DNA from: a virus
Virus record (IMG/VR): IMGVR_UViG_3300017527_000718
Span: 1-52,266 of that record
Direction: 5' to 3' (one strand)
Length of the DNA: 52,266 bases
Part shown: in pieces, positions 36,517 through 48,504 of the stretch
Layout: the number at the start of each line of letters is the position of its first letter
Position numbering within the stretch: position 1 is the stretch's first letter
Notes under the pieces: model-generated
The model's input: only the letters and a program-made list of their open reading frames with translations
Database searches by the model: none
What the model was told of the DNA's origin: nothing
Program-made: the position numbers and the translations under genes

Positions 36517-38157
36517 TCAGGCAGGAGCCGTTGTCGTCACTCCTGCACAGGCACCACGCTCCATCTGTCCACCATACCGAGCCATCACAACGATCAGCAT
36601 CTCGTTGTTACGCATCAACGTATCGCCCTCGGTCGACGTTCGGACTGTGAAGCCCTTGCGTCGGTACATCCGATAGCGGCCGAGGATTGCGTAGAAGATC
36701 TGAGAGTTTGTCAGGCTCTCGTTGATCTTGTACGATCGCTGCATAAAGCTGTAGCCATCGTAATTGGCTCCAGTCTGTGTGTCGAACAGACGGCGGTTGT
36801 CCGCCGCACCAACGGGCAGCCCAATTGCCCGCTGATAAGACGTCTCCGTGCCGCAGAAGACGGCCGTGTTCTTCACACCTGCGGTATGCTCCCGCTTGTG
36901 AACCGAGAACCTCAAGCTCTCGTAGGCACCAATACTCGTTGCGCCACCGAATGCAACACTGGTTGTACCGGAAGCATTCATCACTCCCTGCGGCTGCGTT
37001 GTTCCGTTGCCAACCGCGATCACGTCGTCCAGATCCTCCAGCAACCGCTGTCCGTATTGGGACGTGATGTGAGAGTTGAAATCGATGGGCGTATCGCTGA
37101 GGAAGTCCAGGCCCACCTGCACAGCACCTTCCCAACGGTAGACCGTCGTGTCGAATGCCGCCACATAGGACGCCGTATTGAACAGCGAAATGGCCGATGC
37201 GTCTACGCCGCCCCAAGACCCGGTCACCGTGCCTGTCGAGACGCCCTCGATTCGTCGGCCACGGTCCAGGGGCTTCTCATCCACCAATGGGTACAACTCA
37301 CCATTGAGCAACGGAGCCTGGATGACCTCGTTGTCAAACACAATCGGAGCTGCTTCCAGACCGCCCGAGGTGGAGTCATCGATCAGGGCTTTGATTCCAC
37401 CACCATAACCCCTGACCGTTTTCACATGCTCATCGGTGCTGGCATCCCAGTCACAATTCTCCACCAAGTGACAAAGCAGTCCCTTCTCATGGTCTGTCAT
37501 CATCTCCCACGCCCGCCGCTTCGAGCCGGCAATACGGGGTGTAATGGACAGGATTTGGAATTTGGACCATACACCACTCAGGGCCTTGTCCAATTCGCTG
37601 GAGTTGTCGATGCCCACACCTTGCACCTGGACCCGCTGACCAGCAAGGGGGTGTCTGCCTCCGCCCTTGGTCCGATCGGGATAGGTGAGGGCCGACTTCG
37701 TCGTGGCGTAGGATTCGGAAGCATCCTTGACCCTTGCATCAATATCCTTGCCGTCGACCTCGACCGGGGTGCCACCAAGCTCGGCAACCATCTTGGCCAA
37801 CCGGCTGGGGGTCTTTTTCTCCTTGGACTCCTCGGTTTTCTTCTCGCCGTCCTTGATCTTTTTCTCCTTGGACTCCTCGGTTTTCTTCTCGCCGTCCTTG
37901 ATCTTTTCCTCTTCCTCATTCGGAGTCAGGAGACCAACAACCTTGGTCAGGTTGTCGGCAATGACATCAAACTTCTTGGCAAATTCGTTTGCCTTCTCAG
38001 TCGCCTCATCCTTGGACAACTCAGCGAACTTTTCGGTCGACAACTTGCCGTCCATCAGTGCCTCGCTGGCGGCCTTCTTGAACTCGTCATCACTGGCGTC
38101 CGTCTTCACGTCGCAGTTCTCGACGAGCCACTTCTTAAGAGCTCCGGTCATTTTCAT
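36517..38157 (-). CDS. HK97-type major capsid protein with prohead (scaffold) domain
   Basis: 546 aa from ATG 38157. Residues 1-150 are helical and charged, the delta/scaffold part that the protease removes, and include two identical 15-aa copies of KIKDGEKKTEESKEK. The remaining 390 residues carry the HK97 fold segments: GVDASAISLFNTASYVAAFD, then VGLDFLSDTPIDFN and RMYRRKGFTVRTSTEGDTL. A TTG start 15 nt upstream is possible. The neighbour upstream is the maturation protease. Confidence 0.9.
   Translation of the reverse strand: MKMTGALKKWLVENCDVKTDASDDEFKKAASEALMDGKLSTEKFAELSKDEATEKANEFAKKFDVIADNLTKVVGLLTPNEEEEKIKDGEKKTEESKEKKIKDGEKKTEESKEKKTPSRLAKMVAELGGTPVEVDGKDIDARVKDASESYATTKSALTYPDRTKGGGRHPLAGQRVQVQGVGIDNSSELDKALSGVWSKFQILSITPRIAGSKRRAWEMMTDHEKGLLCHLVENCDWDASTDEHVKTVRGYGGGIKALIDDSTSGGLEAAPIVFDNEVIQAPLLNGELYPLVDEKPLDRGRRIEGVSTGTVTGSWGGVDASAISLFNTASYVAAFDTTVYRWEGAVQVGLDFLSDTPIDFNSHITSQYGQRLLEDLDDVIAVGNGTTQPQGVMNASGTTSVAFGGATSIGAYESLRFSVHKREHTAGVKNTAVFCGTETSYQRAIGLPVGAADNRRLFDTQTGANYDGYSFMQRSYKINESLTNSQIFYAILGRYRMYRRKGFTVRTSTEGDTLMRNNEMLIVVMARYGGQMERGACAGVTTTAPA
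37814..37905 (-). repeat. 45-bp tandem duplication inside the capsid gene
   Basis: Two copies of a 45-nt unit, identical over essentially their whole length, encode the two adjacent 15-aa lysine/glutamate copies in the delta region of the capsid protein. Confidence 0.85.
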
Positions 38158-38254
38158 TTTTGAACCTTTCAACTAAGACCGATCGCTGTGACCATCACGG
38201 ACCAAACCGCGACGTGTCGCTTTCCTGATGGGGAATGGATTGGGAGATCTAATC

Positions 38255-40702: not shown

Positions 40703-41458
40703 TTAGGTGGACCAACTACTGGACGATGCACTGCTCGTACTGCTGGAACTGGAGCTGCTTGAGCCGCTGGAACTAGAACTGCTCGCACTGCTGGAACTGG
40801 AGCTATTCGAGCTTGTGCTGATCGAACTGGAGCTACTCGAACTACTGGAGCTTACACTGCTCGAACTACTGGAACTGGAGCTGCTCGGACTACTGGAACT
40901 GGAGCTGACCGAGCTTGTGCTGATCGAACTGGAGCTGACCGAGCTTGTGCTAATCGAACTGGAGCTGGAGCTGACCGAGCTTGTGCTGATGCTACTCGTG
41001 CTGACCGAACTGGAACTGCTCGAACTACTGGAACTGGAACTGCTCGAACTACTGTGGCTAGAGCTGTTGCTCGTGCTCGACCAGGAACTGGAAGATCCAC
41101 TGGAAACGCTGCTGGAAGAACTGCTAGAGGAACTACTCGACAAGTCCTCCATGCCCAAGATCGACAAACGGTCTTGTGATCTGGGACCAGGAAATTGCAA
41201 CGATCCCGTGTGGAAATTCAAAACGTCGGGCACACTCGTCGACCCATCCGCCAAGGTATCCACCCCCACAGCCTGATAGATTGTGCTATCAGCTAGGGGA
41301 ACCGTCTGTATTTCCGTCGTGTTCACAATACCTGCATTTGTGTATGCAGCCGCCAGAGCTGAATCATCACCGGCTCTTCGCATCCGGGTGACCACCAAGC
41401 TACGACTCGCCAAGTGAGTGCCGCCCGGTCCCAGGTAAAAAGTGACATTCTTTCCCAT
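40703..41458 (-). CDS. Ser-rich structural protein
   Basis: 251 aa from ATG 41458, after GGAG; the frame continues to 41515 but that part lies in the terminator hairpin. Residues 1-105 form a small beta-rich domain, the rest a Ser/Thr/Val/Ile tail of about 145 residues with repeats such as SSSVSTSSISTSS. It directly follows a terminator and lies just upstream of the protease and capsid genes. Confidence 0.7.
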   Translation of the reverse strand: MGKNVTFYLGPGGTHLASRSLVVTRMRRAGDDSALAAAYTNAGIVNTTEIQTVPLADSTIYQAVGVDTLADGSTSVPDVLNFHTGSLQFPGPRSQDRLSILGMEDLSSSSSSSSSSSVSSGSSSSWSSTSNSSSHSSSSSSSSSSSSSSSSVSTSSISTSSVSSSSSSISTSSVSSSSISTSSVSSSSSSPSSSSSSSSSSVSSSSSSSSSSISTSSNSSSSSSASSSSSSGSSSSSSSSTSSASSSSWST

Positions 41459-41477
41459 CTCATGACTCCAATAAAAA

Positions 41478-41507
41478 GCGACGTGTGTTCCTGGAACAAC
41501 ACGCCGC
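41478..41507 (-). terminator. Intrinsic terminator/attenuator-like hairpin
   Basis: A long stem (GCGGCGTGT.GTTCC-type arm and GGAACACACG.CGC-type arm, 41478-41507, one G-T pair and one bulge) is followed on the minus strand by TTTTTATT (41470-41477). It lies downstream of the candidate promoter at 41544-41571 and upstream of the Ser-rich gene, whose ribosome site starts right after the T-run. Confidence 0.8.
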
Positions 41508-41543
41508 AGCATCAACGAAGAGCCTAGACGTCTTACGATCCCA

Positions 41544-42598: not shown

Positions 42599-42863
42599 CT
42601 TGTTCTCCCATATCTGCACTACCACAACCATCCGTAATAAAAACTGATCCTTCAGCTCCCACGACAAGATCTGAAATGTAGACAAGCTCGGGTGATTCCT
42701 TCACCTCATCCCCCAAGCCCCTTAGCTTGTTTGCAGGCAATTCCCCATTATCAAGCAACTCCATCAGCAATGGGCCAGCTCTCTCCCGCATTGTGATGAT
42801 TCCATGATTTGTAGCAAAATCACCAAGGAAATCACCAGATTCGTCTTCGAGCCAGTAACTCAT
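42591..42863 (-). CDS. Hypothetical acidic protein
   Basis: 90 aa. Acidic, with ESGDFLGDFATNHGIITM and LVVGAEGSVFITDG. It overlaps the end of the minor head gene and the next gene; no motif of known function. Confidence 0.6.
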   Translation of the reverse strand: MSYWLEDESGDFLGDFATNHGIITMRERAGPLLMELLDNGELPANKLRGLGDEVKESPELVYISDLVVGAEGSVFITDGCGSADMGEQDV

Positions 42864-45610
42864 GCCCCCAGCCTTTCTCTGATTTCAGAAACAGAAATCC
42901 TGCTCATAGACGACAAACGATAAGCCCCGACTCCTGCCTTGTGGTAATAACTACGCTTGCTGCCCCTCACATCAATCACAACCGTGTGTTTTGTTACCCC
43001 ATGCTCCTCTGCATAAGATTCCTTCCTCCGTCGACTTTTCGGGTGCATCGTTATCTTGTTGTTGTTATTGTCCATTATGGTTTTGACCTCGACGGCCCAA
43101 CCCGATCCCAACACATCGAAAGCATCATTGTCGTCGGTATTTGTGCCCCTAATCAGTTTTGCCAATCGGGCCTGCTCAGATTCCGCTCTCTGCTGCTTTT
43201 CTTTTGTGCTTGGTTTGTGTGTTCGCTTGGCTCTGGAACTGCGTGTGCTCCCCCCACCAGCCGCTGACCCACCTGCTCCACCTCCTGTATCTGGGGCCAT
43301 GTGAGCGCCACCACCTGATCCTGACGAAAACCGTCCATCTGATCCATGATGTGGATTGAACTTCTCCAGTAACTCAGCCGACTTCATATGCCTCAAAGCC
43401 TGCAGAGCCTCCGTCATATTTACCACTTTTCCAGTAGCTTGGGGCCTTTCCAAAGCAACAATAGCCACAATATGATCTTCCCCATTGATGACGTGTGCTG
43501 CGTGCCTATGGTTCCCATCGATGAGCTTTCCGCCCTTCTCGATTGCTATGGGCGTGACCACATTAATAACCTCTCCCTCCATCATGTCGGTAGCCTGTGG
43601 GCCGTTGAATTTTCTCAACAAACCAGCCATATTTTTAGCGTGATCATCCATCCAATCATCGTAATCCTGGCTCGGTGTAACATCCTTTGTTCTTACTACC
43701 CGAATCTCAAAATCAGCCTTCGGCTTCTTAAACCGTTCACGTACGCCATTAGCCTGAGCAGCCTGCTCGTTTATCCTTCTAGCTGGTGTGTTAAAGTCCT
43801 CATCAAGCATCTGATCATCTCTTGAAAACTTAGCACACGTCTTATGCAGCCTCCGCTCGCTCTTGCTGTTTTTCGTGCCCACTTTGAAAGAACCAATCCC
43901 AGCACCCCCACCCCCACCTGCTCCACCTCCTGTATCTGGAGCCATGTGGGCTCCACCACCTGATCCTGACGAAAACCGTCCGTCTGGTCCGTGGTAGGGA
44001 TTGAACTTCTCCGATACGGATTTGCCCCCTTCATAATCCAGCTTGCGGTCGAAGTACTGCTGGATCAACTGCTGGGCATCACCCTCCTGCATACCAAACT
44101 GGGTAACAATGGTGCATTGGCAGTTACTATTGACAATGCCCCCCAACCCTGTAGAATCAGGATCAAACGCAACAATTAACCCATAACTCGATTGGAGATC
44201 ATACACATAATGAGACGCATAGAAATTTTGAACCTCGGTGATCTCATCGAACAATACAACTCCGGGGTATCGCTGCAGCGAATCTCGAAGGAAACTGGAC
44301 ACTCCCGCCCCCTCCTTCGCCGCCGATTCCTTGAGGCTGGTATTAAAATCCGCAGCTACTCCGACAGCCAACGAGCCCGATGGCGTAATTTCAAATCGCC
44401 CTCGTACATCCAAAAGACTCTCGGTGCAGCATGGAAAGCACGTCGCGGCTCCCGAGACTCCGACGCCACAAAATCTGCTAGAGCCATCACCAAATTTCAC
44501 CGACAACTCGGCAGGTTCAAGGACGAAGATCGAATCGCCACATTTCTCAAATTGGCCAAATTTCCCGTCTTGCAGCAATTTCCAGTTGGCCCTTACAATC
44601 TCGATCTTGCCCTTGATGAATTTTCCGTCGCCATAGAAATCGTCCATCTGAGTGTCGCGGATTTCAACCAACCCCGTCCCCAAACTGGAAATAAACCCGG
44701 AAAAGAACGCTTGGCATACTTGCTCGATAGGGGCTGGTTTGTCCTGTTTTTGATTGCCGCTCGAAAGAAGGTGACTCGCAAATGTATCAATGGCAAATTT
44801 GTCCACACCAACGGGGGAACAATGCCTGCTATTGATCTTGGAATTGTAGGCAAGGACCTTATCACCTGGCTGCAACATGCTTGCAGCAACAAGTCCCTTA
44901 GAGGTTACTATTGGGTGATTTTTGGTCACGGTGAGACGTCTTCCAGACGCGGTCACGATTTTGGCAAACTCCCCCTCGTACCACGCACGCTGCGACCCGA
45001 CAAAGTCGCCTTCAACTAAAGTTCCGGCTGGAAAACAATTGCACCGCTCTGAAGCTGGTAAACTGATGTGTCCTGGCCATGGGATCTTAACACCACCCAA
45101 TTCCCACTCACCATTTTCGTCGGCCGGCACACCATCCAGGTTGGCATGGGAATCCCTCGTCGTGTTCCCCAACACACTCAGCCACACGGGCTGCATGGGC
45201 ACCTGTGGGCCCAATTCAGCCATCAATTGGTCTATGGGAGCCTTGCGGGCTGCATTCAGCGCATGTCCGCTTTCTGTGCGGGCTATTCTGGTGGCTCGCA
45301 TCATTGCATATTTGCTCGTCCCACCCTGAAAGCTCTCAGCCATCGTGCTGGCAATCCTGCGGATGGACCACCCTTCTTGAAGTCCCTTCACCAAATATTC
45401 TTCCGCATGACCAGCAGTCACAGCAGAGATATCATCCCAGTACGGCTGAGCGAACGATTCCACTAATTGCTCAGCTATGATCCGCTTCATGTCTTCAGGC
45501 ATCTCCGTCCACACCTGAATGGGAAAGCCATCCAGCCCTGCGAGCATCTCCGTTAGGGCTCCAACATCCTCCGGATGCTCAGCCAGCCATTCTGACGCTG
45601 TAGTGGGCAT
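42860..45610 (-). CDS. Mu gpF/SPP1 gp7-like minor head protein with intein, ParB-like and PD-(D/E)XK-like domains
   Basis: 916 aa from the ATG at 45610; an alternative upstream start at 45697 overlaps a small gene. Domains: MuF-type minor head (about residues 1-191, ending PASERCN), intein (192-496), rest of the head domain beginning CQCTIVTQFG, linker EKFNPYHGPDGRFSS, a ParB-like nuclease-type domain with KLIDGNHRHAAHVINGEDH (about 579-749), a second linker, then a PD-(D/E)XK-like domain (AFDVLGSGWAVEVKT and ITMHPKSRRRKE, about 789-916). The head part sits in the capsid near the portal. The C-terminal parts could act on DNA. Confidence 0.85.
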   Translation of the reverse strand: MPTTASEWLAEHPEDVGALTEMLAGLDGFPIQVWTEMPEDMKRIIAEQLVESFAQPYWDDISAVTAGHAEEYLVKGLQEGWSIRRIASTMAESFQGGTSKYAMMRATRIARTESGHALNAARKAPIDQLMAELGPQVPMQPVWLSVLGNTTRDSHANLDGVPADENGEWELGGVKIPWPGHISLPASERCNCFPAGTLVEGDFVGSQRAWYEGEFAKIVTASGRRLTVTKNHPIVTSKGLVAASMLQPGDKVLAYNSKINSRHCSPVGVDKFAIDTFASHLLSSGNQKQDKPAPIEQVCQAFFSGFISSLGTGLVEIRDTQMDDFYGDGKFIKGKIEIVRANWKLLQDGKFGQFEKCGDSIFVLEPAELSVKFGDGSSRFCGVGVSGAATCFPCCTESLLDVRGRFEITPSGSLAVGVAADFNTSLKESAAKEGAGVSSFLRDSLQRYPGVVLFDEITEVQNFYASHYVYDLQSSYGLIVAFDPDSTGLGGIVNSNCQCTIVTQFGMQEGDAQQLIQQYFDRKLDYEGGKSVSEKFNPYHGPDGRFSSGSGGGAHMAPDTGGGAGGGGGAGIGSFKVGTKNSKSERRLHKTCAKFSRDDQMLDEDFNTPARRINEQAAQANGVRERFKKPKADFEIRVVRTKDVTPSQDYDDWMDDHAKNMAGLLRKFNGPQATDMMEGEVINVVTPIAIEKGGKLIDGNHRHAAHVINGEDHIVAIVALERPQATGKVVNMTEALQALRHMKSAELLEKFNPHHGSDGRFSSGSGGGAHMAPDTGGGAGGSAAGGGSTRSSRAKRTHKPSTKEKQQRAESEQARLAKLIRGTNTDDNDAFDVLGSGWAVEVKTIMDNNNNKITMHPKSRRRKESYAEEHGVTKHTVVIDVRGSKRSYYHKAGVGAYRLSSMSRISVSEIRERLGA
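43268..43366 (-). repeat. Linker repeat A (MuF protein, second linker)
   Basis: Encodes EKFNPHHGSDGRFSSGSG followed by a GAHMAPDTGGGAGG-type segment. Near identical at the DNA level to copies at 43913-44011, 45811-45924 and 46390-46455. It joins the ParB-like domain to the PD-(D/E)XK-like domain. Confidence 0.9.
43913..44011 (-). repeat. Linker repeat B (MuF protein, first linker)
   Basis: Encodes EKFNPYHGPDGRFSSGSG and the GGGAHMAPDTGGG continuation. It joins the end of the minor head domain to the ParB-like domain. Confidence 0.9.
44123..45037 (-). other. Intein (305 aa) inside the MuF-like gene
   Basis: Starts CFPAGTLVEG (block A, nucleophile Cys) after ...SERCN. Block B is TVTKNHPIVTS, with the following MLQPGDKV. 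Block F is FYASHYVYDLQSSYG. It ends VNSN before the Cys of CQCT, so the C-terminal Asn and +1 Cys are present but the usual penultimate His is a Ser. Joining the exteins gives RCN-CQCT, the expected MuF cysteine cluster. The long middle shows no LAGLIDADG or HNH motif. Confidence 0.9.
44210..45019 (+). CDS. Antisense HTH + Vsr/EDxHD-like homing endonuclease nested in the intein
   Basis: 269 aa on the plus strand from ATG 44210 (a TTG at 44192 is also in frame), with GGAG at 44194-44197, 12 nt upstream. N-terminus has a clean helix-turn-helix: LIEQYNSGVSLQRISKETG, then HSRPLLRRRFLEAGIKIRS. The middle follows the PD-(D/E)XK/Vsr pattern: Glu in FKDEDRIATFLK, QQFPVGPYNLDLAL (Asp), SVAIEIVHLSVAD (Glu, His, Asp) and RLAYLLDRGWFVLFLI. 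It lies wholly inside the intein DNA, and each codon is the reverse complement of an intein codon. No known endonuclease motif is seen on the intein strand. Confidence 0.75.
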   Translation: MRRIEILNLGDLIEQYNSGVSLQRISKETGHSRPLLRRRFLEAGIKIRSYSDSQRARWRNFKSPSYIQKTLGAAWKARRGSRDSDATKSARAITKFHRQLGRFKDEDRIATFLKLAKFPVLQQFPVGPYNLDLALDEFSVAIEIVHLSVADFNQPRPQTGNKPGKERLAYLLDRGWFVLFLIAARKKVTRKCINGKFVHTNGGTMPAIDLGIVGKDLITWLQHACSNKSLRGYYWVIFGHGETSSRRGHDFGKLPLVPRTLRPDKVAFN

Positions 45611-45618
45611 AGGCAGTC

Positions 45619-45786
45619 TCACATCAATGATTGGGCTGGGGGATCTACCCCAACCAACAATAGAGCGTATTTTTGAAACAGTGCATCCACCTGCCATCCC
45701 CAATCTTCCTGACTCACATCATCCTGTTGGGCCATCAGCTCAATATCCATAAGCTCATCAACCAAATTTGCAAAGACACCAACCAT
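45619..45786 (-). CDS. Small hypothetical protein between the ART-like and minor head genes
   Basis: 55 aa from ATG 45786 (GGATGGAGG just upstream), ending 8 nt before the MuF start at 45610. Acidic helical composition: NLVDELMDIELMAQQDD, then a Trp-containing part and LLLVGVDPPA. It is in the same frame as the upstream ART-like gene after that gene's TAA stop. It looks protein-like, more so than the alternative MuF N-terminal extension across the same bases. Confidence 0.55.
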   Translation of the reverse strand: MVGVFANLVDELMDIELMAQQDDVSQEDWGWQVDALFQKYALLLVGVDPPAQSLM

Positions 45787-45807: not shown

Positions 45808-46890
45808 TTATGCTCCCCCAGAACCGCCACCTGCTCCACCACCTGTATCTGGGGCCATGTGAGCACCAGAACCTGATCCCGATGAAAACCGTCCATCTGG
45901 TCCGTGATATGGATTGAACTTCTCAAAGCTCTTTGTCTTGTTGAACAAAATAACTTCAACCGAATCCCCCATGGAAACGCCCTCCCCATCAGGAGAGCGT
46001 CTATTAACCGGAACATTCTGCACAATCAAACCATCATGACCATCACTCTTCAGCTTCTGTGTAATCTCCACTGGGTTTTTTGTCCCGAACTCTCTCTGCA
46101 ATTCAGCAAAATAGGGTCTCTTACCTGGCAATCTAAACACCCTTGGATTCTGAAGCGTCACCTTCTGCGACAAAACGTCAGGGCCATACGTTGATGCCAC
46201 CTCCGGAAATGGCGACCAGTACTCCCCCTGTGCATACTGACTTGGGATGCGGGTCCGAGCAGCTTCTGCTCCGGACAAACCCGTGCCTCTGTAACAAGTG
46301 GCCTCGAACGCCTCACCTGTCTTTGCAGTAGCTGCCGCAAACGCACTAGCAGTTTGTGTATCAACGCCCTGAGATGTATCAGCATAATGACCACCCCCAC
46401 TACCCGATCCCGATGAAAACCGTCCGTCTGGTCCATGATGTGGATTGAACTTCTCCGATACTGATTTCTTCCTCCGAATAACAACACCCATCTGCAAAAA
46501 ATGGGCAATGGCCGACTCAGCCATCTGTGCCGCCAAGACGGGCAGCATCTCATCCACCAGCTTGTCCTTCTCCCCCTTAGCATCAAACGAGTGCTGGACC
46601 AGGGCATGAGCCGTATCGGCGTGTGACTTTTCCAATGTCACAGATTTGGATTCTGGCCCATCCAATTCAGCCAACCCGCTTGCTATCGTTTTTACCTGCT
46701 GCTCAATCACTGGGGCAATCACATCAACCAAATTCCCCTCCAACTTGTTGACCTGCTTCAAATGCACACTCCGGGCAACGGCTCGTCGCATCTGGACCAG
46801 CATCACATCCCGCTTCATCTTCACCAGATCTTTTGCAACCGTAACCAGGCCACAAGTGACTTCCAGCTTGTTGTCTTCGATCACGGGCAT
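45808..46890 (-). CDS. Head-associated protein with ADP-ribosyltransferase-like domain
   Basis: 360 aa. The N-terminal 140 residues form a helical domain, followed by a linker EKFNPHHGPDGRFSSGSG. Residues about 197-316 are ADP-ribosyltransferase-like: CYRGTGLSG, GEYWSPFPEVASTYG, VTLQNPRVF, then KSDGHDGLIV and VEVILFNK. The protein ends in a second linker, EKFNPYHGPDGRFSSGSG to GGA and a TAA. It lies between portal and MuF gene and may be packed in the head and injected; function unproven. Confidence 0.7.
   Translation of the reverse strand: MPVIEDNKLEVTCGLVTVAKDLVKMKRDVMLVQMRRAVARSVHLKQVNKLEGNLVDVIAPVIEQQVKTIASGLAELDGPESKSVTLEKSHADTAHALVQHSFDAKGEKDKLVDEMLPVLAAQMAESAIAHFLQMGVVIRRKKSVSEKFNPHHGPDGRFSSGSGSGGGHYADTSQGVDTQTASAFAAATAKTGEAFEATCYRGTGLSGAEAARTRIPSQYAQGEYWSPFPEVASTYGPDVLSQKVTLQNPRVFRLPGKRPYFAELQREFGTKNPVEITQKLKSDGHDGLIVQNVPVNRRSPDGEGVSMGDSVEVILFNKTKSFEKFNPYHGPDGRFSSGSGSGAHMAPDTGGGAGGGSGGA
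45811..45924 (-). repeat. Linker repeat C (C-terminus of ART-like protein)
   Basis: Encodes EKFNPYHGPDGRFSSGSG and GAHMAPDTGGGAGG, then GSGGA and TAA. This linker ends in a stop instead of leading to another domain. Confidence 0.9.
46390..46455 (-). repeat. Linker repeat D (inside ART-like protein)
   Basis: Encodes EKFNPHHGPDGRFSSGSGSG, the shorter copy without the AHMAPDT part. It precedes the ADP-ribosyltransferase-like domain. Confidence 0.9.
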
Positions 46891-46902: not shown

Positions 46903-48504
46903 TCAGCTTTGGGCGGCCTTCAATATCAGATTCGCCAACTTCTCAACTTCCTCCTCCGGTGTCTGCCGAAGCTCCTCGGTCGCCTCCTGCAATGCACCAG
47001 TCGCCTGCTGCACGGCTGCTACCTCCTTAGCCTTGCCCGCAATCTTCTTGGCCATATCGGACGGAATGCCAAGGCCCTCCATTACGGCTCTTGCCTGCTC
47101 CGGCGTGATGCTCCCCTGCCCCACCTGGCCAAGCAGATTAACAATGCCAGGAATGGATGATTTGTCAATTACCGACTCGTTGCAATCTTCATCAGGAGCA
47201 AACCCCAACTCAGCCCGAAATTCGTTCTGGCTGATGTCATTGTTCTGCCTGGCAAATCGAAGCATCGAGTTTCGCTGTTGAGGATCTTGACTCTCACACT
47301 TCTCCCACCAAACCAACAGACTGCTTTCCTCGTCCTCCTCAGCATTGCCCACCAAATTTGTCACTACGTTGCCAAGCATGTCCAAATACGTGTTGACCCG
47401 TTTGTGAAAACGCTTCTCAATGTTTGTGGCCTGTGCATATCCACCAACGTTCAGCGCCTCATTCAAAATGTAGGGATGAACACCATAGGCAGAGAGGATC
47501 GACCGTTTGACTGACTCCTCAGACTTGTCCCATCCCATCTCATTCTGCGTCATGCTCAGCCGTTCAATCTTCTCGATCAAACCATCCACGATCGCTGGGT
47601 TGCCATAGTTGGCCACACCTCCCATCACCTTGCTGATGGCCCCTTTTACCTGCCTCCGCTGCGAACCCGTCAGCCTGGGCCGGATACCCCCTGCGACTTC
47701 GGGGTGTGGCTCTTTGCCAATGGTCACGATCACCGAAGGGAAAATCCCGTTGCTGAAAAACTGTTCACGGCTAGTCCAGATATGATCATTGATCCGAATG
47801 GCCATCATCTCAGCCGATGCCGGGGCCATGGCACTCAGCGGATCGCTGGGATTGGGCAAGTGCATGAACCCCACGTTGTCCCTGCCCAACACAACGGGTT
47901 CAGCCCCCACTGCTCGTCGCTTGGGATTAGATACTTTGAATTGGGCAAAGGCGCCCTTTTCGTGGCATGGGGTCACCCAGGTCGTTGGCAGAGCATACAA
48001 CTCCAACCCCTCCTTGGTCTTGCCATAGACAATGTATGACCATCCCGTCAAACACAGATTAGTAACAGCTGCATAAACAAACTGCCATCTGCCCTGAATG
48101 GGATTGGGATTCTCCAAGACACCCCGGAGGGGCGAATCCCCAAGCACCTCCAACTCCTGGTTGGCGGTCTTACTCCTTGCCGTGGTGGTCATCTTCGATT
48201 TCACAATGACCAACTTCTCCTGCTGTTCCTTCTTTTTTGTCTCCTTGCCCTTCATCTGACCAACACAGACGGGCTGGCCAGCCGCTTCGGAAGCAACAGC
48301 ATTGATTGCCGAGTACAACCACGAATGAAATAGGCCGTACTTCTCCGAATACCCACGCTGATTAGCCCAATCAGTCATCCCACCGAAGTTTGTGGGTGCG
48401 GTCAATGTGCTGCCCACACCGCCGGCCTTGATTCGGTAGGATCGATCATGTGCCACAACTGACAAAGCCCGACTTGAGCCAAAAGCCTTTTTCAAAACAC
48501 TCAT
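46903..48504 (-). CDS. Portal protein (HK97-like)
   Basis: 533 aa, correct size. Typical portal pattern: WLYSAINAVASEAAGQPV, PTTWVTPCHE, then NDHIWTSREQFFSNG and the NEMGWDKSEESVKRSILSAYGVHPYIL and NVGGYAQATNIEKRFHKRVN segments, with a helical C-terminus. It forms the dodecameric ring for DNA entry. AGGAGGG precedes the ATG. Confidence 0.9.
   Translation of the reverse strand: MSVLKKAFGSSRALSVVAHDRSYRIKAGGVGSTLTAPTNFGGMTDWANQRGYSEKYGLFHSWLYSAINAVASEAAGQPVCVGQMKGKETKKKEQQEKLVIVKSKMTTTARSKTANQELEVLGDSPLRGVLENPNPIQGRWQFVYAAVTNLCLTGWSYIVYGKTKEGLELYALPTTWVTPCHEKGAFAQFKVSNPKRRAVGAEPVVLGRDNVGFMHLPNPSDPLSAMAPASAEMMAIRINDHIWTSREQFFSNGIFPSVIVTIGKEPHPEVAGGIRPRLTGSQRRQVKGAISKVMGGVANYGNPAIVDGLIEKIERLSMTQNEMGWDKSEESVKRSILSAYGVHPYILNEALNVGGYAQATNIEKRFHKRVNTYLDMLGNVVTNLVGNAEEDEESSLLVWWEKCESQDPQQRNSMLRFARQNNDISQNEFRAELGFAPDEDCNESVIDKSSIPGIVNLLGQVGQGSITPEQARAVMEGLGIPSDMAKKIAGKAKEVAAVQQATGALQEATEELRQTPEEEVEKLANLILKAAQS

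Follow-up and report, generated by a model that had tools for sequence, protein, structure and literature searches.

A probable homing endonuclease gene encoded antisense within an intein of a phage minor head gene

The intein that interrupts the minor head gene in a viral DNA of 52,266 nucleotides (IMG/VR record IMGVR_UViG_3300017527_000718, hereafter the window) very probably carries a complete homing endonuclease gene on its opposite strand. Our computational analysis establishes two overlapping genes and their folds, selection acting on both strands, a cassette complete in itself, and alleles both bearing and lacking the intein; transcription and translation of the nuclease, cleavage and homing are expected on the strength of sequence. 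An earlier note made from the window had presented the arrangement as a single oddity, a view that did not hold: across a large family of inteins, the nuclease is ordinarily encoded antisense. It is likely that many phage inteins, forming a large clade, keep their mobility nuclease as a separate, fully antisense gene, that blocks G, F and A double as its promoter region, its ribosome-binding site and start, and its stop, respectively, and that the same base pairs of the catalytic core are selected for two distinct folded proteins, one on each strand, the whole forming a natural, widespread and self-contained gene pair.

The intein and the frame that faces it

The minus strand encodes a MuF-type minor head protein (42860-45703; 947 residues, exteins and intein together; Phage_Mu_F, PF04233, E 3.9e-6) whose gene is adjoined by a portal gene (46903-48504; PF04860, E 1e-25). 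The intein (44123-45037, minus strand) comprises 305 residues from Cys1 (45035-45037) to Asn305 (44123-44125), is followed by a +1 Cys and lies between extein flanks reading ERCN and CQCT, the insertion site in the minor head gene being NC(R/Q)C. Hallmarks of inteins found in the window are C1, T38 and H41 of TKNH, VYDL, and N305 followed by Cys; C1, H41 and N305 are invariant in the intein alignment (A3). Matches of the gene to Intein_splicing (PF14890; E 1.3e-4 and 3.0e-7) both fall below the curated cut-off. In the AlphaFold model, both halves of the HINT fold exceed a pLDDT of 90. The N-terminal half (intein residues 1-65; 44843-45037, minus strand; blocks A and B, TKNHPIVT) scores 94-98 over residues 1-60 and displays codon variability of the minus type, and the C-terminal half (residues 255-305; 44123-44275, minus strand; blocks F and G, HYVYDL ... 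GIVNSN), which is also supported by alignment A3, scores 91-98 from about residue 261 onward. Residues 154-241 (44315-44578, minus strand), antisense of the helix-turn-helix (HTH) half of the nuclease, form a predicted disordered linker (pLDDT <50), and minus-strand amino-acid identity drops to 0.24 in the half facing the HTH. The top PDB matches of the intein model are nearly all inteins or hedgehog HINT domains, albeit with weak E-values (best 0.011). The boundaries, PF14890 and the resemblance of the model to solved inteins bear out the complete intein that the earlier note had read in the minor head gene.

The plus-strand gene (44210-45019; 269 residues, ATG to TAA) consists of an open reading frame at 44210-45016 and a TAA codon at 45017-45019, and the whole frame lies within the intein. 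Both frames begin at coordinates equal to 2 modulo 3, so that codons face reverse codons exactly; the containment of the frame and its register, with SVAIEI on the plus strand paired to DDFYGDG on the minus strand, are as previously noted. Given this register, the sense frame stays open merely by the nuclease gene avoiding the codons TTA, CTA and TCA.

The antisense protein, its relatives and its probable role

The plus-frame protein was modelled with confidence by AlphaFold (pLDDT 88.7, pTM 0.76) and its best fold match in the PDB is the homing endonuclease I-Bth0305I (probability 1.00, TM 0.60 on the target), the top matches, 3r3p and 1vsr, indicating the fold of I-Bth0305I and Vsr. The protein comprises an HTH DNA-binding part (residues 9-42; 44234-44335, plus strand), with model helices at residues 9-17, 22-29 and 33-42, HTH_58 and HTH_7 matches in its relatives and constraint on the plus strand only, and a PD-(D/E)XK core of the Vsr/MTES_1575/I-Bth0305I-like kind (residues 104-182; 44519-44755, plus strand) with conserved E106, Q123, D132, E143 and R167. 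Searched on its own against Pfam and the PDB, the window nuclease gave nothing decisive and had no match to PF18741; family-level searches gave decisive matches, with PF18741 found in 11 of 14 relatives. E143 is conserved at 49 of 49 loci and E106 at 46 of 49, with Q123, N130, D132 and R167 likewise invariant or nearly so; the core fold is accordingly accompanied by its acidic residues, D132 and E143 being invariant. The HTH and Vsr/EDxHD-like nuclease proposed earlier is therefore retained as to its HTH and PD-(D/E)XK fold, not as to the exact EDxHD assignment: in the E-H-D motif claimed for AIEIVHLSVAD the glutamate is E143, and in VHLSVAD neither H nor D is conserved (position 146 is G at 18, S at 9, R at 4 and H at 3 of the 49 loci). 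Catalytic details are uncertain for that reason.

Searching with the plus frame by tblastn retrieved 39 phage records, 31 of which cover at least 80% of the query, with E-values down to 1e-18; the number of phage records ranged from 39 to 132 depending on the query. A single-sequence scan of IMG/VR yielded no match, the patterns being too specific, and an alignment scan recovered relatives in 380 IMG/VR stretches; 16 bacterial contigs also contain relatives. The intein scan was run with the HINT-N alignment. Both frames are open in the same antisense phase at all 95 loci bearing the core motif, which come from phages of Gordonia, Pseudomonas, Cronobacter, Vibrio, Escherichia and other hosts and from metagenomes. 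Start and stop of the nuclease frame lie inside the intein, and the frame is intact, in 61 of 61 inteins with a located block F (8 of 69 representatives, where the search pattern found no block F, were left out of the start-codon counts), placing the gene within the mobile element as is expected of a homing endonuclease. Relatives that lie antisense in other MuF inteins, plus frames free of stop codons, plus-strand purifying selection in codon-position statistics and the predicted fold all agree with the proposal that the splicing element would be made by one strand and its mobility nuclease by the other.

We propose that the minus strand would give rise to the minor head protein with its intein, which would then splice itself out; judging from the uninterrupted genes of close relatives, the spliced product would be intact. 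The plus strand would express, from a promoter-like site beside block G, a ribosome-binding site and ATG in block F, the open reading frame and a stop in block A, a separate HTH and PD-(D/E)XK nuclease of the Vsr/I-Bth0305I kind. This nuclease would most likely act on minor head alleles that lack the intein, cutting them at the NC(R/Q/K)C codons, and repair of the cut allele would copy the intein in. Close relatives have empty sites at the exact insertion position, and near-identical phages carry intein-free alleles, as homing predicts. It is unlikely that the antisense protein, while real, has another role, for instance as a superinfection-exclusion nuclease or a regulator, rather than homing for its own intein. 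That the cleavage target is only predicted, and that two free-standing relatives sit beside intein-less minor head genes, would be compatible with such a role; the start and stop always within the mobile element, the best fold match to a homing endonuclease and the exact empty sites speak against it, and the free-standing copies too adjoin the same target gene.

Overlaid putative expression signals and constraint on two strands

The putative expression signals of the nuclease are superimposed on intein motifs. A sigma70-like promoter, TTGACA-16-TAGAAT (11/12; 44130-44157, plus strand), precedes the nuclease start within the intein, on the block G side, and exceeds the synonymous-recoding null both at the window locus (p about 0.01) and across the 49 loci (p 1e-7); it is clear (at least 10/12) in 14 of the 49, that is, in part of the family. 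Block F ([G]HVYDL) serves also as a putative Shine-Dalgarno sequence and ATG, the former being GGAGAT (44194-44199, plus strand), the reverse complement of the Asp-Leu-Gln codons (p 6.5e-5 against synonymous recoding). Its spacing to the ATG, 12 nt, is long in the window and shorter in most relatives. Codon usage in block F agrees with both the ATG and the Shine-Dalgarno sequence, with CAT in 83 of 97 cases against 38.7 expected and CTC in 83 of 106 against 26.5 expected. The stop (TAA, 45017-45019, plus strand) faces the TTA codon of intein Leu7 in block A, and across the family it corresponds to a Leu or Ser codon near this block; TTA, CTA or TCA occurs within the first 20 intein codons at 49 of 49 loci against 17.5 expected. 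Homing genes often decay after fixation, and the sense frame alone would hold an antisense frame partly intact, such that the nuclease gene might be mostly a relic, once active and since decayed in many members. We regard this as very unlikely, given that start codon, Shine-Dalgarno sequence and stop are maintained, that E106, Q123, N130, D132, E143 and R167 are invariant or nearly so in 49 diverse loci, and that no disrupted frame occurs among the 61 inteins.

Evidence of selection on the plus frame comes from statistics that span related sequences and are thus not independent. The plus-strand p3/p1 ratio of codon-position variability is 0.4-0.8 in the flanks and about 1.0-1.5 inside the nuclease frame, where variability changes from minus-type to plus-type codon positions, and plus exceeds minus amino-acid identity in nearly all of the 60 closest pairs. 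The plus frames of relatives contain none of the 262 TTA, CTA and TCA codons expected. Two relatives are free-standing: one (L106), which has no open sense frame, aligns over nearly its full length (222 columns, HHalign probability 100%), and the other (L099) contains 12 TTA/CTA/TCA codons. The codon-position switch, the avoided codons and the free-standing relative sustain the assertion that the frame is not a random shadow. Over the HTH half, synonymous sites of the plus frame are free to vary (0.60) and those of the minus frame are not (0.34), the reverse of the flanks. Over about residues 195-269, its last third, the plus frame runs opposite the N-terminal HINT half, and selection is there dominated by the minus strand. 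The C-terminal motif GxYRVIRGxGE was considered as a mere shadow of block B in this region of dominant sense constraint, yet L106 keeps the motif.

Constraint acts on both strands at the catalytic core. Plus VAIEI, with the catalytic E143, and minus DFYGD (intein residues 133-137) share positions 44627-44641; at the third position of plus codons 140 and 141, C is present in 100% and 94% of 49 loci, respectively, against a background of 42%, and synonymous rates are depressed on both strands. The register does transfer some conservation between strands, the sense side has in DFHGD a strongly conserved motif of its own, which is predicted to be structured, and sense constraint prevails in the last third, but the hardly credible reading that the plus frame merely copies a conserved sense middle domain is already contradicted by the reversed synonymous rates opposite a sense product predicted to be disordered, by the matches of the plus protein to nuclease and HTH families and to a homing endonuclease fold, and by free-standing relatives that retain this protein without a sense frame.

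Relation to known systems and implications

In-frame LAGLIDADG or HNH inteins (e.g. PI-SceI) share with the present one a HINT splicing domain and a nuclease between blocks B and F; there the sense protein includes the nuclease, whereas the present nuclease is a protein in its own right, encoded on the opposite strand. Fractured genes with split inteins, reportedly described by Dassa et al. in 2009 with a separate Vsr-like nuclease gene between the intein halves, likewise link a Vsr-like homing endonuclease to an intein; the present intein, in contrast, is contiguous and overlaps the nuclease gene on the other strand. The Vsr-like EDxHD homing endonucleases typified by I-Bth0305I, from a phage group I intron, provide the best fold match and a profile match (E 0.01), but the nuclease described here is antisense in an intein rather than in an intron, its HTH is N-terminal, and neither the H nor the D of EDxHD is conserved. 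A combination of HTH-type DNA-binding part and nuclease core, as in the antisense protein, is known from phage homing endonucleases (PMC3943268). The MTES_1575/DUF559 PD-(D/E)XK proteins (PF18741, PDB 3hrl) are akin to the family through its PF18741 members and a match of the A2 profile to 3hrl (6e-6), and differ in that the present nuclease is fused to HTH repeats and lies within inteins. The ShiLan insertion, which stays open in the host frame, likewise conceals an HNH homing endonuclease in an overlapping frame (PMC11855218), although on the same strand, in the third frame and without an intein. Antisense His-Cys homing endonuclease genes are carried by group I introns (I-DsqI), with expression and cleavage demonstrated (PMC9548176); what is shared is a splicing element with a homing endonuclease gene antisense to it, except that this element is RNA, so that the other strand is not protein-coding, and that the present case is known from sequence and models.

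A full-text literature search found no description of antisense, opposite-strand or EDxHD nucleases in inteins; the search did not cover a preprint on non-canonical actinobacteriophage inteins (Gosselin 2025, 10.1101/2025.01.02.630785). Two distinct proteins, an intein and a nuclease, are encoded by a single short DNA segment, and with independent lines of evidence for selection on the two strands, repeated at hundreds of loci, this ranks among the clearest phage examples of an overlapping gene lying fully antisense. The picture of intein mobility changes in that the nuclease need not belong to the spliced protein; being separate, it could follow a timing of expression different from that of the invaded late structural gene. 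Many phage inteins whose sense frame lacks a recognizable endonuclease may be mobile elements in full, of which only one strand has been annotated. Laboratory phages of Salmonella, E. coli and Gordonia that differ only by the intein constitute a direct test system.

The intein and its predicted antisense nuclease

The minor head gene of the window (42860-45703, minus strand), which adjoins a portal gene (PF04860, E 1e-25), encodes a MuF-type protein of 947 aa (Phage_Mu_F, E 3.9e-6; intein splicing PF14890, E 1.3e-4). Its junction motifs (ERCN|CFPAGT ... GIVNSN|CQCT) delimit an intein of 305 aa at 44123-45037 (minus), entirely within which lies an open frame of 269 aa on the plus strand (44210-45019). 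The coordinates given to both in the earlier note are exact; those of both frames equal 2 mod 3, so that each plus codon stands opposite a reversed minus codon.

Eleven of 14 relatives of the plus-strand protein matched the PD-(D/E)XK family MTES_1575, and many matched helix-turn-helix (HTH) families. The family profile retrieved 3hrl (6e-6) and the homing endonuclease I-Bth0305I (3r3p, 0.01) from the PDB. AlphaFold2, run with 49 sequences (pLDDT 88.7, pTM 0.76), predicted an HTH (residues 9-42), helices and a nuclease core, in this order, the top PDB fold match of the model being the catalytic domain of I-Bth0305I (probability 1.00), followed by Vsr, in line with the nuclease core proposed earlier. 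As full-length E-values are weak (0.015), the assignment as an I-Bth0305I-like nuclease relies on sequence and structure pointing the same way. Residues E106, Q123, N130, D132, E143 and R167 vary little or not at all among relatives; the H and D of the E-H-D motif put forward in the earlier note are not conserved.

On the sense strand, AlphaFold modelled both HINT halves of the intein confidently and the middle segment 97-153, which carries DFYGD, with moderate to high confidence, and predicted residues 154-241 to be disordered; PDB matches of this model were nearly all inteins, with weak E-values. The disordered segment lies opposite the HTH half of the nuclease and the structured one opposite its catalytic core.

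Spread of the arrangement and selection on each strand

The homologues that the earlier note had called for were found, antisense in other inteins. The plus frame matched 39 phage records by tblastn (E down to 1e-18), 31 of them covering at least 80% of it, and in the 13 isolate loci first fetched it was open and lay on the strand opposite a head-morphogenesis, minor capsid or hypothetical gene. Two relatives used as queries returned 67 and 132 records, including Salmonella Jerseyvirus, Escherichia Kagunavirus, Klebsiella, Vibrio, Haemophilus and Edwardsiella phages; an IMG/VR alignment scan yielded 380 relatives, and others were found on 16 bacterial contigs. At loci with the core motif, the plus frame was open together with its in-register minus frame (300 to 1665 codons) in 95/95, the remaining two minus registers being mostly short. 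A reverse search with the 66-aa sense HINT N-terminus alone, a stretch outside the nuclease core, revealed an antisense frame of 204-325 codons in 76 of the 77 loci whose intein end had been called (the sole exception, L128, had its intein end miscalled) and the nuclease motif, as a simple pattern, in 65. An antisense nuclease frame is thus the rule in a large family of inteins and not a product of chance.

Since, in this register, wobble bases on either strand pair with first codon bases on the opposite one, codon positions reveal which strand is selected. In aligned pairs, the plus position-3/position-1 variability rises from 0.4-0.8 in the flanks to about 1.0-1.5 inside the nuclease ORF and falls again over the N-terminal HINT half. 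Differences at sites that are synonymous on a single strand (plus- and minus-synonymous, respectively) point to minus coding in the flanks (0.25 and 0.58), plus coding in the HTH half (0.60 and 0.34), constraint on both strands in the catalytic beta strands (0.38 and 0.16) and minus coding in the tail of the frame over the N-terminal HINT (0.205 and 0.57). Purifying selection thus acts on the plus frame. Core identity of the closest pairs was higher in the plus than in the minus frame in nearly all cases. TTA, CTA and TCA, which would place stops in the sense strand, were absent from the plus frames of 69 representatives; the codon usage of the individual genes predicts 262. Plus codons 140 and 141 have C as their third base in 100% and 94% of 49 loci (background 42%), preserving the sense D and G of DFHGD; in the catalytic core, the same base pairs are thus constrained by both proteins.

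Putative expression signals within the splicing motifs

In all 61 inteins whose block F could be located, the nuclease ORF both starts and stops inside the intein. Read on the opposite strand, this block (G-H-V-Y-D/N-L-Q) provides a Shine-Dalgarno (SD) sequence then ATG, typically TTGGAGGTCRTAAACATG. The residue preceding VYDL is His in 97 of 119 distinct loci, encoded by CAT (antisense ATG) in 83/97 (38.7 +- 4.5 expected), and the Leu codon is CTC (antisense GAG) in 83/106 (26.5 +- 4.2 expected). In most exceptions, CAT or CAC stands two to four codons off, or CAA (antisense TTG) is used; in loci L131 and L134, the block F sequence is GQVYDL, and its CAA codon makes TTG rather than ATG the antisense start. 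The nuclease stop codon lies opposite a Leu or Ser codon close to block A, and TTA, CTA or TCA occurs within the first 20 intein codons in 49/49 loci (17.5 expected).

Compared with synonymous recoding that preserves the sense protein, promoter-like scores upstream of the nuclease start (8.69 versus 7.54, p 1e-7) and SD scores (p 6.5e-5) were elevated in 49 non-redundant loci, p-values that are indicative because these loci are related. Promoter-like scores reached at least 10/12 in 14/49 loci and 12/12 in three, some members of the family having no visible promoter-like site. The window carries a sigma70-like candidate, TTGACA-16-TAGAAT (11/12; 44130-44157, plus), and an SD 12 nt from the ATG. 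By these motifs, the nuclease gene is a self-contained cassette overlaid on the splicing motifs of the intein.

Probable mobility, possible origin and neighbouring features

At one and the same site, near-identical minor head genes of Gordonia phages hold the Vivi2-type intein or a distinct one of Sedona type, or are empty, and Salmonella phages likewise differ in the presence of the intein. The Vivi2 (L002, 316 aa) and Sedona (L010, 275 aa) antisense-nuclease inteins are quite different and occupy an identical site in head proteins about 99% identical, a site that is empty in other close relatives. Intein-plus and intein-free alleles meet at exact junctions. On at least one side, the 50 nt next to the junction are less alike (identity 0.82-0.90) than the sequence out to 300 nt (0.92-0.95), a pattern expected of co-conversion. 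The inteins use several insertion sites, N|C(R/Q/K)C in most cases and others in L006, L014, L026 and L046. In the homologous head genes of a Kagunavirus (L014) and a Jerseyvirus (L101), inteins of this kind occupy two different sites (TT|CRARD and HPN|CRST), which implies a change of target specificity.

In the most likely mechanism, transcription of the plus strand would start at the internal promoter or result from read-through, and a separate HTH nuclease made from this transcript would cut intein-free minor head genes, whose repair would copy the intein in, while the sense strand yields the spliced head protein. Plausibly, the nuclease gene was inserted reversed at the usual intein endonuclease site between blocks B and F, its register being the sole one where stop avoidance is synonymous. 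Two relatives, in Acinetobacter phage IME285 (L099, 413-1348) and a Thermoleophilia MAG (L106, 3977-4672), are free-standing; each lies immediately 3' of an intein-less minor head gene, in convergent orientation, and that gene keeps an intact CKC/CRC target motif. The former has 12 TTA/CTA/TCA codons and no long sense frame; the latter has 2 such codons and aligns with the family over 222 columns, C-terminal part included (probability 100%). The nuclease protein thus exists without an intein opposite, and these copies may represent an ancestor or an escape form.

The closest precedents differ: the HNH gene of the ShiLan insertion is out-of-frame on the same strand (PMC11855218), and antisense His-Cys genes are found in group I introns (PMC9548176). 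The Jerseyvirus intein was noted in PMC8425127, where the passages found do not speak of an antisense nuclease. For overlapping reading frames, PMC11855218 cites a preprint about non-canonical intein architecture in actinobacteriophages, which may already describe part of the antisense-nuclease arrangement.

Elsewhere in the window, the motif EKFNP(Y/H)HGPDGRFSSGSG(S/G)G with GAHMAPDTGGGAGG, which had no Pfam match, is repeated several times in two neighbouring head-region genes (42860-44122 and 45808-46890). Within 45808-46890, a segment CYRGTGLSG ... YWSPFPEVASTYG, joined to the head gene cluster, resembles an ADP-ribosyltransferase-type domain; a Pfam search of it at E 0.01 gave no match. 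A low-complexity protein with long serine runs (40703-41515, minus) faces a Leu/Glu-rich shadow frame on the plus strand, and a second long, fully antisense ORF pair, 36886-38163 (plus, 425 aa) and 36517-38172 (minus, 551 aa), may likewise be a shadow.
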